Assembly (NCBI GenBank): GCA_014730235.1
Contig: WJIO01000212.1
Span: 1 to 44,141 of the forward strand
From: Candidatus Poribacteria bacterium
Lineage (GTDB): Bacteria > Poribacteria > DTPJ01 > WJIO01
DNA length: 44,141 nucleotides
Direction of reading: 5' to 3'
Each line of letters begins with the position of its first letter. Position 1 is the first letter of the stretch. The notes under the pieces were generated by a model that saw nothing but the letters and a program-made list of their open reading frames with translations, did not search any database and was not told the DNA's origin. Positions 35,699 to 43,824 of the stretch are shown one piece after another. A program made the translations under genes and the position numbers.

Positions 35699-37135
35699 CT
35701 AAGAAACAGTTTCTTCGGTTAGAAGCTCTTTTACAAAAGCCCTTATACCAGGTGTTCCGGAATTGGCAATCCTTCTTAATTCGGCAATTGCTTCAGCATC
35801 CCCGATTTTATAAAGAGCCTGTATAGCGGTAAGTTTAACAGTAGAAACTTCGTCTTCATCCCTGAGCACACCGATAAGTTCCTGTCTTACTTTTTCTCCG
35901 CCTATATTACCCATTGCAGCAACGGCACTGTCCCTTACTCTACTATCTTCATCCTGAAGTGCTTTCACAAGCACTTCAATAGCAGGTTCACCAATTCTTC
36001 CCAGGGCATAACCCGCCTCAAGACGAACTCCTAAAGAAGAATCTTTTAGCGCTTCACCCAGTGGTTCAATAGCTTCCAGAGGCTTCATTCTTGCTATTGC
36101 TCTTGCGCAGCTCCTTCTTACCTCAGCATCCGGCTCATTTTTTTCCAGCATGTGATATACAAGAAGTTGTACGGCTTTTTCTGCATCCATCTCTTCCAGG
36201 GCTTCGGCGGCGGCTCTTCTTATCCACTTATCATCGCTTTCCAAAGCTTCTAGCAGATGGTCTAAAGCTTTTTTATCACCGATTTCCCCGAGGGCGCTTA
36301 TAGCAGCTAACTTTATTCCACCTATTTCACCCCGTTTGAAAACAACCCTATCTGCATCTAAAGCCTTGTCGATAGCATCTTTATAAGTATCAATACCAGT
36401 TATTTCCATTTCATCAATAACGTGGGTTATTGCATCTCCCTCCATGATACCTTCCATATAAGCTACCTTTTCTTCGTTATCATCTTTCTCCAGTTCTACC
36501 ACTACAACAGCGTCATCTCTGTCCTGAGTTTTTTTAATTCCAACTTCGCTCAAATTTGAAGCAACTACATTCCTGAAAACTCCCAATACTAATTGATTGG
36601 AGCCGGCCAAAGCTTTGGATATAACATCATTATATTCTTCCATACTACTTATAGTTTCACCGTTAATTTCATTAATAATTGTATTTGCTTTTATACCCGC
36701 TTTATCTGCCGCTTTGTCAGGCTCTACAGAAACGACAACTAGGCCTCTTTGCTCCGGATCAGATTCTCCCTTAAGACCAAGGTTCTGAATGGAATTTACT
36801 GATAGAGTTTTTATTACTTTCAACATGGCCTTTTCATCTTCATCCAGGGCGTCTTCTAAAAATTCTTCAAATTCATCCGAATTTGAGACCTTTCTTTCAT
36901 CCACCACATGGGAAATAAGTTCCCCGGTTTCTATAAGTCCATCTGCCGGAGAGCCCGATTTTACTGTCTCTACAACTACACCCTTTAAAGCCCAACGATT
37001 ATCCAGGTCTGAACCCAGATCTCTCACGGTTATGCCTGTTGCCTCATCTTCATATCTATGACCACAACCGGAGACAATGACTAATATGGTTAAAATAGCC
37101 ACAATTATCAATGGCCATGAATTTCTAAGCGCCAT
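35699..37135 (-). CDS. Lipoprotein with three PDZ-like domains then HEAT repeats
   Basis: Not a named family to my knowledge. The 478-residue protein has a lipoprotein signal (VSGC, Cys24). Residues 35-110, 112-187 and 190-268 are three successive PDZ-like modules, each with a GxxxGDxI-type loop and a closing helix (for example GLIETGELISHV, AGIKANTIINEI, GIMEGDAITHVI). From about 270 to the end there are some six HEAT/PBS-lyase-like repeats (ALGEIGDKKALDHLLEAL, AAEALEEMDAEKA, AGYALGRIGEPAIEVL, AVAAMGNIGGEKV). No catalytic residues are seen, so it is probably a periplasmic scaffold. A GGGG-containing ribosome-binding site precedes the ATG. It follows a paralogue by 161 bp. Confidence 0.82.
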   Translation of the reverse strand: MALRNSWPLIIVAILTILVIVSGCGHRYEDEATGITVRDLGSDLDNRWALKGVVVETVKSGSPADGLIETGELISHVVDERKVSNSDEFEEFLEDALDEDEKAMLKVIKTLSVNSIQNLGLKGESDPEQRGLVVVSVEPDKAADKAGIKANTIINEINGETISSMEEYNDVISKALAGSNQLVLGVFRNVVASNLSEVGIKKTQDRDDAVVVVELEKDDNEEKVAYMEGIMEGDAITHVIDEMEITGIDTYKDAIDKALDADRVVFKRGEIGGIKLAAISALGEIGDKKALDHLLEALESDDKWIRRAAAEALEEMDAEKAVQLLVYHMLEKNEPDAEVRRSCARAIARMKPLEAIEPLGEALKDSSLGVRLEAGYALGRIGEPAIEVLVKALQDEDSRVRDSAVAAMGNIGGEKVRQELIGVLRDEDEVSTVKLTAIQALYKIGDAEAIAELRRIANSGTPGIRAFVKELLTEETVS

Positions 37136-37296: not shown

Positions 37297-38877
37297 TTAA
37301 ATCTTTATTTCTATTGGGTTAGCTTCTTCTTCAAGCATTTCTATGAGAGAATCAACAGCAGCTTTATCTTTAATTTCTCCCAGAGCTTGTGCAGCATCAA
37401 AACGAACAAGTAGACCTTTATTCCTTAAAACATCAATCAACTTATTAACGGCTTCTTTGTTTGTTACTGATATAGTGGTTTCACCGTCGGCAAGTCCTTC
37501 TTTTATAAATTGATTGTATTCTTCAACGCTGTTTATCTTTCTTCTGTTGATAATATATGTTATTATCTGACCTTTTCTGATACCTGCTTCTACTGCAGGG
37601 CTGCGCGGTTCAACCTCAGTTACAACTATACCTACTGCTCCTGTGTCAAGTTCTTTAATCCTCATTCCCAGATCATCGCTATCCTCAGGTATAGAAACGG
37701 ATATAAGTCTATACTTATCATCATTGGCAATTCTAAACCTTATTTCCTGAGCTTGAGATACTTTTTCCCGGACTAATCTCTTATATTCTTCCAGGGAACT
37801 TACAGGATGATTATTAATATGAGATACAGTCTCGCCTTTTTCTATACCCCTTTTTCGAGCCCTGCTGTCTACAGTCATTTTACCTATGACAATTCCTTTT
37901 CCATCGTTTGATACTTTTAATTCCTCTTCCTTAATGCCCAATTCCTCAAGGCTGTCTACTGTAACACTTACAATTTTGGGCAATCCGAAAGTTATTTCCT
38001 CACTATTCTGCAGGGCATCAGAATAAAGATACCTATAAACATCAAGGGAAGTTATATATTTATTATCAATAACATGAGTTATTATTTCATCTTTCTGTAG
38101 AGTAGTATTCTCAGTTACTCCACTGGAAATTCTGACCCCCTCGCTTACTGGTTCTACCTGGACACCAAAGGAATCCCCATTTATATCTATGTTTCGTTTG
38201 GCAATCTTACGAAGGGATACAACAGCAGCTCGACGGACTTCTTGCTCTTCACCTTCTTCATCTTCCGTTTTAAGGGCGGTAATTCTTTCCATGAGATGGT
38301 CAATTGCCCGGGAATCTCCAATATTGCCCAGTATTCTGACAGCATTAAATCTGGTTTCCATTCTATCGTGCTTTATTACATCTTTTTCAGTTACCCGGTC
38401 AATAACTACCCTATGGTTATGAAGTTTGCTAAGGACAAGGGCTGCATCCTCACGATCCCTTGAATCCTTTGATTTCAGAGTCTTAACCAGGGGTTTTATC
38501 ATGGAATCCATCTGCTTATGTATATCTTGCAATGCTTTGGCTGCGCTTTTGCGCACATTCTCATCACGATCTCTCAAAGCTTCTTCTATAAGTACATCAA
38601 GATATTTTCTTTTATCATGCTTATAGGCCAGAACCATTTGTTCTGCCCTTTTGTCAATTGTAGCGTTTTCATCATAATATCCCAGCAAATAATGAGCTTC
38701 TGCATTATCAGGTTCCTTTTGAACAGCAAGTTCAAACTGAGCCACTGCTCTGGCAATCCTTCCCCTTTTGTCAGATTTCACCCATTCTTTACCTTTGGAT
38801 AGATACTCATTTTGATTTCCACATCCAATCGTCACCACCAATGTAACAACCAGACATGCAAAGGCTAATTTTCTCAT
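37297..38877 (-). CDS. Lipoprotein with TPR, HEAT and PDZ-like domains
   Basis: A 526-residue paralogue of the downstream gene. I chose the ATG at 38877 (MRKLAFACLV): GGAGG lies 9 bases upstream and the lipobox TIGC (Cys19) then has the right distance; the frame extends to 38919. After the lipidated cysteine come a TPR-like hairpin (about 25-65, AVAQFELAVQKEPDNAEAHY), HEAT-like repeats (about 75-230, including VRKSAAKALQDI and AVRILGNIGDSRAIDHL), three PDZ-like modules (about 235-460, including GIEKGETVSHI and GIRKGQIITYI) and a closing HEAT unit (ALGEIKDKAAVDSLIEML). The order differs from the downstream gene, where PDZ modules precede HEAT. A scaffold role at the envelope is inferred. Confidence 0.82.
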   Translation of the reverse strand: MRKLAFACLVVTLVVTIGCGNQNEYLSKGKEWVKSDKRGRIARAVAQFELAVQKEPDNAEAHYLLGYYDENATIDKRAEQMVLAYKHDKRKYLDVLIEEALRDRDENVRKSAAKALQDIHKQMDSMIKPLVKTLKSKDSRDREDAALVLSKLHNHRVVIDRVTEKDVIKHDRMETRFNAVRILGNIGDSRAIDHLMERITALKTEDEEGEEQEVRRAAVVSLRKIAKRNIDINGDSFGVQVEPVSEGVRISSGVTENTTLQKDEIITHVIDNKYITSLDVYRYLYSDALQNSEEITFGLPKIVSVTVDSLEELGIKEEELKVSNDGKGIVIGKMTVDSRARKRGIEKGETVSHINNHPVSSLEEYKRLVREKVSQAQEIRFRIANDDKYRLISVSIPEDSDDLGMRIKELDTGAVGIVVTEVEPRSPAVEAGIRKGQIITYIINRRKINSVEEYNQFIKEGLADGETTISVTNKEAVNKLIDVLRNKGLLVRFDAAQALGEIKDKAAVDSLIEMLEEEANPIEIKI

Positions 38878-38979
38878 AAAAACATGCCTCCTAACCAAAG
38901 ACGGATTATATTCCAGCACTTAATAGCCAGACCGACTTGAATTATAAGTTTTTTATGTATACTACACATATAACATAAA

Positions 38980-39867: not shown

Positions 39868-39920
39868 ACTGATAAAGCTATCTGAAAATAAGATTTCAAT
39901 AATATAAAACGGAGGATATG

Positions 39921-40730
39921 ATGAAAATTTTTAAAAGTATTATTGTGTTAATTTCGCTTTTTATGTTGCTGATATCATGCAGTAATTCAGGCAAATCAAA
40001 AACTCCTGAAAGTGCCAGGGAAATTTTGGAAAAGACTTATGATAAATACAGCGATTTGTTCAAAAACGACGCAAAAGAACTTAAGACCATAGATGCAAAA
40101 ATCACTGTGAAAGGTGGGGCCAACCTGCCTATGGGTGAGGGCGGGGAAATGCCTATGGAGATTGACGTTGCTCTGGAAATGAAGGCTAAACAGCCTCAAA
40201 TGTTTTATCTTGATATATCAGGCAACCTGGGTAATGCTATCCTCGTAGCATCAGGAAAAGATGGGGAAACCGGCAAACCAAAAGCAACTCTCATGCTTCC
40301 CAGCACAAAACAATTTGCAGTTTTGGATGCACCTGATAATTTTATGAACCAGATACCAGAAGATGAACAGGAAGAAGAACAGAAAAAAGAAGAAATACTG
40401 GAAAAAGCAATTTTAGAACATGAAGGCATGGTAAATCTGAAAAATGGCAGAGCCCATAAAATTATTATAAAATCCAAAAATCCGTCGGAAAATAGCCATG
40501 TTGTGGTATATATACTGGACAAAAAATGGGATCCTGCCCGTTTGGAAATGTATGAAGCAGGGGAAAATAAAGCTGTTGTTGAATTTGAAAAGCTGGATCT
40601 AAATAAGAATATATCCGATAGAGAATTTATGCCCAACACAGAGGGTTACAAAGAGGTTACTCAAAACCAGATTGTCACCATTATCATGATGCAAGTTATG
40701 GCCTCTATGATGCAAAAAGGTCAAGAATAA
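39921..40730 (+). CDS. LolA-like outer-membrane lipoprotein-sorting-type lipoprotein
   Basis: A 269-residue lipoprotein with the lipobox LISC (Cys20 from the chosen ATG). The second of two adjacent ATGs is chosen because GGAGG lies 5 bases before it and only 2 before the first. The body has the beta-strand pattern of LolA/LppX-type lipid-binding proteins: LKTIDAKITVKGG, MPMEIDVALEMKAKQPQMFYLDI, TLMLPSTKQFAVLDA, then a charged helix (EDEQEEEQKKEEILEKAI) and strands ending EFEKLDLNKNISDREF. This suggests handling of lipids or hydrophobic ligands in the periplasm. Similarity is structural rather than motif-based, so the call is moderate. It has its own promoter and a strong terminator. Confidence 0.65.
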   Translation: MKIFKSIIVLISLFMLLISCSNSGKSKTPESAREILEKTYDKYSDLFKNDAKELKTIDAKITVKGGANLPMGEGGEMPMEIDVALEMKAKQPQMFYLDISGNLGNAILVASGKDGETGKPKATLMLPSTKQFAVLDAPDNFMNQIPEDEQEEEQKKEEILEKAILEHEGMVNLKNGRAHKIIIKSKNPSENSHVVVYILDKKWDPARLEMYEAGENKAVVEFEKLDLNKNISDREFMPNTEGYKEVTQNQIVTIIMMQVMASMMQKGQE

Positions 40731-40772: not shown

Positions 40773-40823
40773 ACATAGCTGATCCCCCATCAAAATTGAT
40801 GGGGGATCAGCTATGTTTTTTTT
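40773..40823 (+). terminator. Strong rho-independent terminator with 21-bp stem
   Basis: A perfect stem pairs 40773-40793 (containing GCTGATCCCCCATCA) with 40796-40816 around a 2-base loop, followed by eight T residues. A smaller hairpin (GTTACCGG / CCGGGTAAC) lies 16 bases upstream. It ends the LolA-like transcript, and the stop codon of the convergent RecQ-like gene lies within the right arm. Confidence 0.9.
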
Positions 40824-42816
40824 GAATTCTTTTAAGACGATTATGACCTAATTCCGTAATCTGAACCGAGGGATAAAAAATCCCGCTAACTATAAGGCAC
40901 CCTCGCTCTATCATTTCATCAATTAAATTCAATATAGACTTCTCACTCATATTGGCCAATATACCATATTCTTCTATGCTATCCAGCCTGTATCTACCTA
41001 TTTTTCTGGTTTTTTGGCCTTTTAGTATCTTTAAAAGACTTCTTCTGCTAACCTGACCATTAGCTTTATAAGCACACCTTAATACTGCTGCAAAAATATC
41101 ATCATATTCTATATCTTCGACTTTTATTGCATAATCTTTTTTTATTAAGGAAGTATCCGTATCCTTCTTTTTATTTTCGCAGTTATCACAACCAAAACAA
41201 TCACGTATATCCAAATCCATATAATTCATCAGGTATTCATGTCTACATTCTGAGGTATCAATATAGCCTTCCATTGCTTTCAGAGAACCGCTTTTGATTT
41301 TTTTTACTTCAGCCATGATACTGTCAGGGAAAGACTTATTCAGATTCATTATGTGTATTGCTATGGTTTTTCTTCTATATCTTAGAGATAATAAACCCTC
41401 AAAATGAAGTTGATTGAGACTTTCCTCGATATAGTGCATGGAACATGATAATTCGTCGCTTAACCGGGCCAGATTTATATTAGAATCCCCATTATTATTA
41501 TCGTTTTCTAATAACCATTTTAATACCGGGGATTTTTCTTCGACAGATTTTGCGTTGTCTTTTAACCTGATCCTACACTCTAAAGGAAAATCCGGAAGCA
41601 ACCTTAACATTCCGCATCTTTCCATTAAACTCAGTATATCAAGAATCCTATATATTTTAGTGGCTGTTCTATCCTCAATTAACCGGAAAGGTATCATTAC
41701 TGCCTGATCTCGGGGATAGCTGGAGAGAAATTTCTTTACGTTATCGAACTCAACAGAAGATATAAAAGATGCTTTTAACCCAGAGCGGCACAAATCCCGG
41801 TCTGAGTAACAGAAAATAAGAACACATCGGGCAGGTTTTCCATCAATCCCGGCACCGCTGATTTGATGTAAATATGTATCGGGACATAAAGGCATATAAA
41901 AATGTACGATAAGCCTTATGTCTTTTCTTGTTATTTTTAAATCGGAGAAATGGTTTATAATGATAACAGGAGATGGGGTATTTTCAAAATGCTTTTTAAT
42001 TTCAGATCGTTTTTCCTGATTGATCATATTATGATATGCCATAACATTCGATTTTACTTTTGCCAGGAAACGATAAATGACTTCGGCATCTTTTCTTGAG
42101 CCTGCATATATCACCCCCGGGCCGTCTAAGTCATAGATTAATGAACTCAATATCCTGAGCTTTTCCTCCATGGTTGAAACCCTTACCAGACTCAGATGCA
42201 GATTATTTAACCCTATATACGGTTTAAAACGCTTTGCCTGGTCAATTTGCAGTTGATAACAAATGTTATCCTGAATCCGAGGGATACAGGTATCAGCCAG
42301 GGCCATTGTGACTGGCGGGGGATCGGATTCTATAAGTGCTTTACTTATATAAAAATACTCAGGCCGAAAATAACGGTAAAACCTGGAAATGTACTGGGCT
42401 TTTTCTATCACCATGAGGTATACGGGTATTTTGTCAAGAGCAAAGAGAAATTCACTATTTTTAAACATATCGGGACTGGTAAATATCAACTTATATTTAC
42501 CCTCTGCAATTCCTTTGATACGCTGTTGCAGATACTCATGGGATATGTTTCGGTTTATGCATGTGGAAGGTAAAAGGGGATCATTGGAATCCAGAGTAGT
42601 TTCATTGGATTCTGAAACCACCAATGTTATACCGGGAAATATTAGTGCAGGAATTTTATATAAAACGGAAGTATCAAACCTATGGTTTGATGTTACCAAT
42701 ACATCAGAACCGGATAAAACAGCATTGATTATCTCTTTTTGATCAGGGCTGATTTCCTTCTGATTGATGTGTTTAAGTAATTTATCCAGTTCCTCGTTAT
42801 TGATGGAAGATTCCAC
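40807..42816 (-). CDS. RecQ-family protein with eroded helicase motifs (pseudohelicase)
   Basis: A 669-residue protein co-linear with RecQ helicases: SPDQKEIINAVLSGSDVLV (23-41), RFYRYFRPEY (145-154), the second RecA-like lobe (235-340), a linker with winged-helix-like segments (380-500), the RecQ zinc site (Cys524, Cys540, Cys543, Cys546) and an RQC winged helix (570-665). The catalytic motifs are changed: Walker A reads SNHRFDTSV (no GKS), DEAH is replaced by IEKAQ, TATAT by ADTCI, and motif VI QxxGRxGRDG reads QISGAGIDG. ATP hydrolysis is therefore unlikely, while DNA or protein binding through the C-terminal domains may be kept. The frame is intact. It starts at GTG with a weak GGCGG site. 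It lies 282 bp after the TIM-barrel gene. Confidence 0.85.
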   Translation of the reverse strand: MESSINNEELDKLLKHINQKEISPDQKEIINAVLSGSDVLVTSNHRFDTSVLYKIPALIFPGITLVVSESNETTLDSNDPLLPSTCINRNISHEYLQQRIKGIAEGKYKLIFTSPDMFKNSEFLFALDKIPVYLMVIEKAQYISRFYRYFRPEYFYISKALIESDPPPVTMALADTCIPRIQDNICYQLQIDQAKRFKPYIGLNNLHLSLVRVSTMEEKLRILSSLIYDLDGPGVIYAGSRKDAEVIYRFLAKVKSNVMAYHNMINQEKRSEIKKHFENTPSPVIIINHFSDLKITRKDIRLIVHFYMPLCPDTYLHQISGAGIDGKPARCVLIFCYSDRDLCRSGLKASFISSVEFDNVKKFLSSYPRDQAVMIPFRLIEDRTATKIYRILDILSLMERCGMLRLLPDFPLECRIRLKDNAKSVEEKSPVLKWLLENDNNNGDSNINLARLSDELSCSMHYIEESLNQLHFEGLLSLRYRRKTIAIHIMNLNKSFPDSIMAEVKKIKSGSLKAMEGYIDTSECRHEYLMNYMDLDIRDCFGCDNCENKKKDTDTSLIKKDYAIKVEDIEYDDIFAAVLRCAYKANGQVSRRSLLKILKGQKTRKIGRYRLDSIEEYGILANMSEKSILNLIDEMIERGCLIVSGIFYPSVQITELGHNRLKRIQKKHS

Positions 42817-43098: not shown

Positions 43099-43824
43099 TT
43101 ATATACAACCTGTTTCTTTAAGATAATTAACTGATTTTTCCAGGGCGGCAGCCATTTCGTCTTTGCTTGTGGACTCAAGCTCAAAGGTAAATGGGCCGTA
43201 AAAATCCAGTTCGTTGAGTATACGGAATACTTCTGGAAAATCCACAATTCCTTCGCCTAATGGTGGGAAATTGAAGGATTTTGGTTTTCCATCGGTGTCC
43301 TTTAGATGCACACTGGCAACGTATTTGGCAACCTTTTTAAGTTCCTCGACCGTATCAATATTCTCATTGTAGTAGTATATATTAGCTGTATCGAAATTCA
43401 GCCTGATATTAGGATGGTTTACACCTTCCATAGTCTGAAGGGCAACATCGCCGTTATGACATAGAATAGGGTGGGTTTCTATGGCGATGGTAACATCATG
43501 TCCAGCAGCTTTATCACCGATCTTCCTGAGTCTTTCGAATGTAACCTCTCTGGGAATTTTATCGCTGGCCTTTGCACTGACAAAGATAATCTTTGATCCC
43601 ATGTTGACAGCACCATTGAGAAGCGTATCAAAGTCATCAATACCTTTGTCATCAGTAACGTCTATTCCTCCGCTGATACTCAGGGCTTTTAGATCATATT
43701 TACTGAGTTCAGCTTTAAGCTTATCCACATTTTCAGGTTTTGGTGGGCCAATTTCTACACCCTTTATGCCTAGCTTTTGTAACGTTTCATAGCTGCCCGT
43801 TCGGGATGAAAGTATGTTTTTCAT
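43099..43824 (-). CDS. Sugar-phosphate isomerase/epimerase-like TIM barrel
   Basis: A 241-residue protein of the xylose-isomerase-like/AP-endonuclease-2 TIM-barrel superfamily. Strand-end residues typical of the divalent-metal site are visible: KGVEIGPP near the start, VTIAIETHPI, IRLNFDTANIYYY, VASVHLKDTDGKP and GPFTFELEST. Such enzymes isomerise or epimerise sugars and often work with Gfo/Idh/MocA dehydrogenases, one of which is at 34473. The length is slightly short for the family. GGAGG lies 9 bases before the ATG. Confidence 0.88.
   Translation of the reverse strand: MKNILSSRTGSYETLQKLGIKGVEIGPPKPENVDKLKAELSKYDLKALSISGGIDVTDDKGIDDFDTLLNGAVNMGSKIIFVSAKASDKIPREVTFERLRKIGDKAAGHDVTIAIETHPILCHNGDVALQTMEGVNHPNIRLNFDTANIYYYNENIDTVEELKKVAKYVASVHLKDTDGKPKSFNFPPLGEGIVDFPEVFRILNELDFYGPFTFELESTSKDEMAAALEKSVNYLKETGCI

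Follow-up and report, generated by a model that had tools for sequence, protein, structure and literature searches.

The gene on the (-) strand at 40807..42816 of the window, the whole 44,141-nt stretch of Candidatus Poribacteria DNA analysed here, probably encodes a retained RecQ-family pseudohelicase, in which two helicase domains (HelN and HelC), a winged-helix insert, a zinc-binding domain and an RQC domain follow one another, the ATP site has been lost and selection to fold appears to have persisted. To our knowledge, pseudohelicases are few in number, and a literature search found neither a RecQ pseudohelicase nor a paper on RecQ in Poribacteria. If the protein is indeed retained and non-catalytic, it is a natural case in which the binding of DNA and partners by RecQ is separated from the motor, and would allow one to test which RecQ functions run without ATP. 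RecQ gene counts based on profile matches alone can include such dead ATPases.

Gene, domain architecture and predicted fold

The reading frame comprises 669 codons and a stop, begins with a GTG start immediately 3′ of an in-frame TAA and is preceded by a GGCGG-like ribosome-binding site, 5 nt before the start. The 2-kb frame, described as intact in the initial annotation, is free of internal stops over its 669 aa, and its codon usage is indistinguishable from that of the other genes in the window. The changes in its ATPase motifs are substitutions that keep the frame and are spread along its full length, which excludes a frameshift or assembly artefact as their cause. The genome to which it belongs spans 5.5 Mb in 451 contigs and is 91.6% complete.

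Upstream on the same strand, after a gap of 283 bp, lies a TIM-barrel gene resembling sugar-phosphate isomerases (43099..43824, (-)), and a lipoprotein gene on the opposite strand (39918..40730, (+)) is convergent with the pseudohelicase gene; neither neighbour gives any hint of a role in DNA metabolism. Where the two convergent genes meet, a perfect 20-bp hairpin followed by seven T (40773..40816, (+)) has the form of a terminator for the + strand and extends over the final codons and the stop of the pseudohelicase gene; it is the sole copy within the window. Further along, two adjacent genes on the (-) strand (35699-37135 and 37297-38919) encode lipoprotein-like proteins that each carry PDZ domains and HEAT repeats, an unusual pairing, and one of the two also has a TPR match.

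Homology to RecQ extends from end to end, as had been claimed from alignment by eye. The NCBIfam model TIGR01389 (recQ) matches in two stretches at 1.3e-64, the score of 218.7 bits lying far below the RecQ cut-off of 640, and TIGR00614 gives 147.7 bits, below its RecQ cut-off of 220. A phmmer search of the PDB recovers E. coli RecQ (1oyw) at 5e-32 over residues 18-341, with a weaker second stretch at 501-658. The motif alignment places helicase domain 1 (HelN) at residues 1-203 (42208..42816, (-)) and helicase domain 2 (HelC) at residues 204-350 (41767..42207, (-)); the Pfam DEAD domain has no match anywhere in the protein, and Helicase_C is barely found (23.4 bits, 7e-05). The RecQ zinc-binding domain (residues about 496-556; 41149..41331, (-)) exceeds the PF16124 (RecQ_Zn_bind) cut-off of 25 with 32.3 bits (1.7e-07) and keeps, in the alignment, the four cysteines already noted in the initial annotation (Cys524, Cys540, Cys543 and Cys546). 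The RQC winged-helix domain (residues about 569-669; 40810..41112, (-)), likewise reported as kept, scores 57.5 bits against PF09382 (1.5e-15, cut-off 23). Eight intact RecQs give 85-106 bits for DEAD, 59-92 for Helicase_C, 34-59 for the zinc domain and 55-98 for RQC where it is found. The loss is graded along the protein: DEAD is invisible to the profile, the zinc domain slightly weak and RQC in the normal range.

Between HelC and the zinc domain lies a winged-helix-like insert of ~150 residues (roughly 350-500, drawn at about 351-495; 41332..41766, (-)), which the initial annotation overlooked. Like bacterial RecQ, as known from E. coli (1oyw) and D. radiodurans (4q48), the protein runs from a pair of RecA-like domains through the zinc domain to RQC, but it differs in lacking the ATP motifs and the HRDC domain and in carrying this insert, which E. 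coli-type RecQ does not have. Intact Poribacteria RecQs, whose proteins end after the zinc domain, also carry the insert, and it is found together with RQC in intact RecQs of Planctomycetota, Chloroflexota and Myxococcota (L054, L056, L058, L060 and L055). These last have the same domain order and a similar span, but their ATPase motifs are all intact, and they include no resolved sister of the pseudohelicase.

Comparison of a predicted structure with RecQ, proposed as a check in the initial annotation, gives a match to the RecQ fold. When supplied with an alignment of 38 relatives, AlphaFold2 yields a model with a mean pLDDT of 88.5, which aligns end to end with D. radiodurans RecQ (4q48; VIA Z 37.6, 484 residues aligned) and matches RECQL5 and BLM with Z of about 36. 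Without the alignment the prediction fails (pLDDT 33.6), so that the model, leaning as it does on the alignment of intact relatives, shows compatibility with the RecQ fold rather than independent proof of it. A helicase fold from which the catalytic residues have been lost, the mark of a pseudohelicase, is thus predicted by a model that depends on the alignment.

Loss of the ATPase motifs

The motifs were compared with those of 34 Poribacteria RecQs, including the canonical RecQ of this genome, and 80 RecQs from named bacteria of many phyla, making 114 aligned rows that represent 111 distinct genes (three genes are present twice). All five motifs are intact in 114/114 relatives, with conservative variants only. 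In the pseudohelicase, every ATPase motif that had been named as lost is found without its key residues: GKS of Walker A (residues 42-50) has become DTS, DEAH of motif II (136-142) EKAQ, TAT of motif III (172-177) ADT, T-FGMGIDK of motif V (about 287-297) N-SDLKITR, and QE-GRAGRDG of motif VI (about 313-326) HQ-SGAGIDG, with both arginines absent. None of the features that mark an active RecQ (GKS/T, DEAH box, TAT, motif V and the motif VI arginines) is therefore present. What persists are remnants, namely S50 in Walker A and A322, G323, D325 and G326 in motif VI, together with two elements of helicase domain 1 that had escaped notice, the glutamine of motif 0 (Q26) and the FRPxY with which the aromatic-rich loop ends, retained as FRPEY (residues 150-154).

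The losses are concentrated in the ATP motifs. In a set of 38 relatives, 101 positions reach an invariance of 90% or more; of these, the pseudohelicase has lost 28/38 in the ATP motifs, against 28/63 elsewhere (Fisher p 0.007), the latter made up of 13/27 in DNA-contact motifs and 15/36 in the remainder, the boundaries of motifs and classes having been drawn by the author after the usual RecQ motif map. Identity to the relatives is low, at about 27%, and the assignment of single residues is uncertain. A RecQ without the Walker A lysine, the DEAH acids and the motif VI arginines cannot couple ATP to movement, and the pseudohelicase would be expected neither to hydrolyse ATP nor to translocate.

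Distribution, retention and rival explanations

Searches for an orthologue of the pseudohelicase found none in its own genome, in 39 relatives or in 84 Poribacteria genomes, none in 400 genomes of Chloroflexota, 392 of Planctomycetota and 395 of the phylum to which the RecQ L055 belongs, and none in viral contigs; a contig scan by exact 8-residue words, which is nearly blind to distant relatives, was also negative. The strongest foreign matches inspected in the alignment (L133 and L134) are intact RecQs. Relatives with intact motifs, whose presence at the same locus had been named in the initial annotation as a sign of recent decay, are abundant, but none was found at that locus. In the phylogenetic tree, the pseudohelicase has no supported sister and sits on an end branch of 4.06 changes per column (median 0.37), and AU tests reject neither a grouping with the short RecQs of Poribacteria nor one with the RecQs of Chloroflexota. 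The one genome of the same order that was searched (G001) has no match to the pseudohelicase or to the canonical RecQ and no RecQ zinc domain; it is 88% complete, so that the absence of RecQ reflects either loss or incompleteness. In this fragmented assembly, a thymidylate kinase gene adjoins a homologue of the neighbouring lipoprotein on a 3.5-kb contig. Most Poribacteria have one to four RecQ-like genes above 1e-30, of two main kinds, one of about 600 aa with the winged-helix insert and a larger one of up to about 1100 aa.

Outside the motifs, 114 positions carry a hydrophobic residue in 85% or more of the relatives; the protein is hydrophobic at 105/114 of them, while its overall composition is just 43% hydrophobic. 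Its median identity to the relatives is 29% in HelN, 28% in HelC, 26% in the zinc domain and 23% in RQC, against 53%, 46%, 36% and 23%, respectively, when the relatives are compared with each other. The usual constraint thus appears to have gone from the ATPase half but not from RQC, where 23% over 90 columns is near noise. In a neutral simulation starting from the pseudohelicase gene (without indels, 200 runs at each step), a mean of 20.9 stops had accumulated at 53% amino-acid identity and 37 at 23%, and no run was stop-free (0/200 per step) at 0.1 or more substitutions per site. As 20-40 stops would be expected under neutral decay and none is present, the frame has probably been under coding constraint, and translation and selection of the gene appear to have continued through most of its past. 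Taken together with the preserved core and with an RQC that diverges at the relatives' pace, this provides strong, if indirect, support for a protein that stayed under selection to fold, and sides with the earlier proposal of retention over recent decay.

The competing view that this is a recently inactivated recQ copy, decaying and yet to meet a stop codon, draws on the very long branch and on the failure to find either an orthologue or a conserved neighbourhood, but it is very unlikely: the loss of so many invariant residues would have brought the simulated number of stops in the absence of selection, codon usage is normal, and the hydrophobic core, zinc cysteines and RQC have been preferentially kept. 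A subtler possibility is that the ATPase half persists only as a spacer, with little constraint on its structure, and that the selected function lies entirely in the winged-helix, zinc and RQC part; RQC-minor proteins, which bind DNA and lack helicase domains, would be a parallel. The normal pace of divergence and the normal-range score of RQC would suit such an arrangement, as would the weak matches of the NCBIfam models RQC_minor_1 and RQC_minor_2 to the RQC part; a pure spacer, however, would be expected to shrink or to lose its core, and the helicase domains keep both an open frame and a hydrophobic core, with 35/63 near-invariant positions outside the ATP motifs kept protein-wide. We consider this explanation unlikely, although less so than decay.

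That nucleotide is still bound or hydrolysed by an altered site is highly improbable, since the kept Q26, S50, A322, G323, D325 and G326, which might suggest it, are set against the loss of the Walker A lysine and glycines, of both motif VI arginines and of DEAH, now EKAQ. It is also extremely improbable that the protein belongs to a defence or toxin-antitoxin system as its RecQ-like subunit. The PADLOC models DpdF (1.2e-56) and PsyrT (3e-54) do match it, but over the RecQ helicase core, as they would match any RecQ, and a scan of five neighbour proteins revealed no system partner, only weak repeat-type matches. A retained pseudohelicase, deprived of its ATP site, is the reading that we favour.

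Putative role beside the canonical RecQ

A separate canonical recQ in the same genome, the search for which had been recommended in the initial annotation, does exist as a single gene with all motifs intact. Its product, of 713 aa with RQC, HRDC and helix-turn-helix domains, is the only other RecQ in the genome. Beside this gene and on the opposite strand (L052, 1-4242), a very long protein with WD40 repeats and a TPR-like start is encoded, followed by a PP2C-like phosphatase, both read by eye.

The genome also encodes two full-length SSBs, both of which end in DDIPF; a third SSB match (L139; G000:C168:4796-5008) is broken by two TAA codons. In E. coli, the SSB tail binds a basic pocket in the RQC domain of RecQ that includes R425 and R503, and these residues fall on lysines 584 and 662 of the pseudohelicase in the phmmer alignment and its extension by hand. 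The isoelectric point of its RQC domain is 9.65 and that of HelC, which is net basic, 9.2, against a median of 6.2 for HelC in the relatives. The basic RQC and HelC fit nucleic-acid binding, and the lysines of the putative SSB pocket, combined with the DDIPF tails, suggest, as the most likely role of the protein, binding at SSB-coated or branched DNA independently of ATP. The loss of half of the near-invariant DNA-contact residues (13/27) weakens the case for DNA binding.

Judged from its sequence, the protein most likely serves as a scaffold that binds DNA or protein, and not as an enzyme. With less certainty, the basic surface of HelC and the winged helix of RQC would bind branched or single-stranded DNA, and the DDIPF tails of the cell's two SSB proteins may offer the protein a docking site. 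At forks or recombination intermediates it could then work independently of ATP, as a scaffold or modulator, and would possibly compete with or recruit the canonical RecQ. A bolder proposal, conceivable though doubtful, is that it is a lineage-specific, constitutively inactive RecQ paralogue whose dedicated task is to assist or antagonize, without catalysis, either the active RecQ or SSB at forks, which would make it the first bacterial RecQ pseudohelicase and part of a level of RecQ regulation not known in model bacteria.

Helicase homologues that have lost their motor are documented elsewhere. D. radiodurans PriA is a pseudohelicase without ATPase and unwinding activity, which keeps DNA binding and interacts with DnaB (PMC4504706). 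It resembles the Poribacteria protein in being a bacterial homologue of superfamily 2 DNA-repair helicases whose helicase motifs are degraded, but it belongs to the PriA family and is that organism's own PriA; in the Poribacteria genome, by contrast, a canonical RecQ is also present. Utp25 of the yeast SSU processome is a DEAD-box pseudohelicase in which the helicase fold is kept and the motifs are dispensable (PMC9539457); it differs in its descent from DEAD-box RNA helicases and in its place in eukaryotic ribosome assembly.
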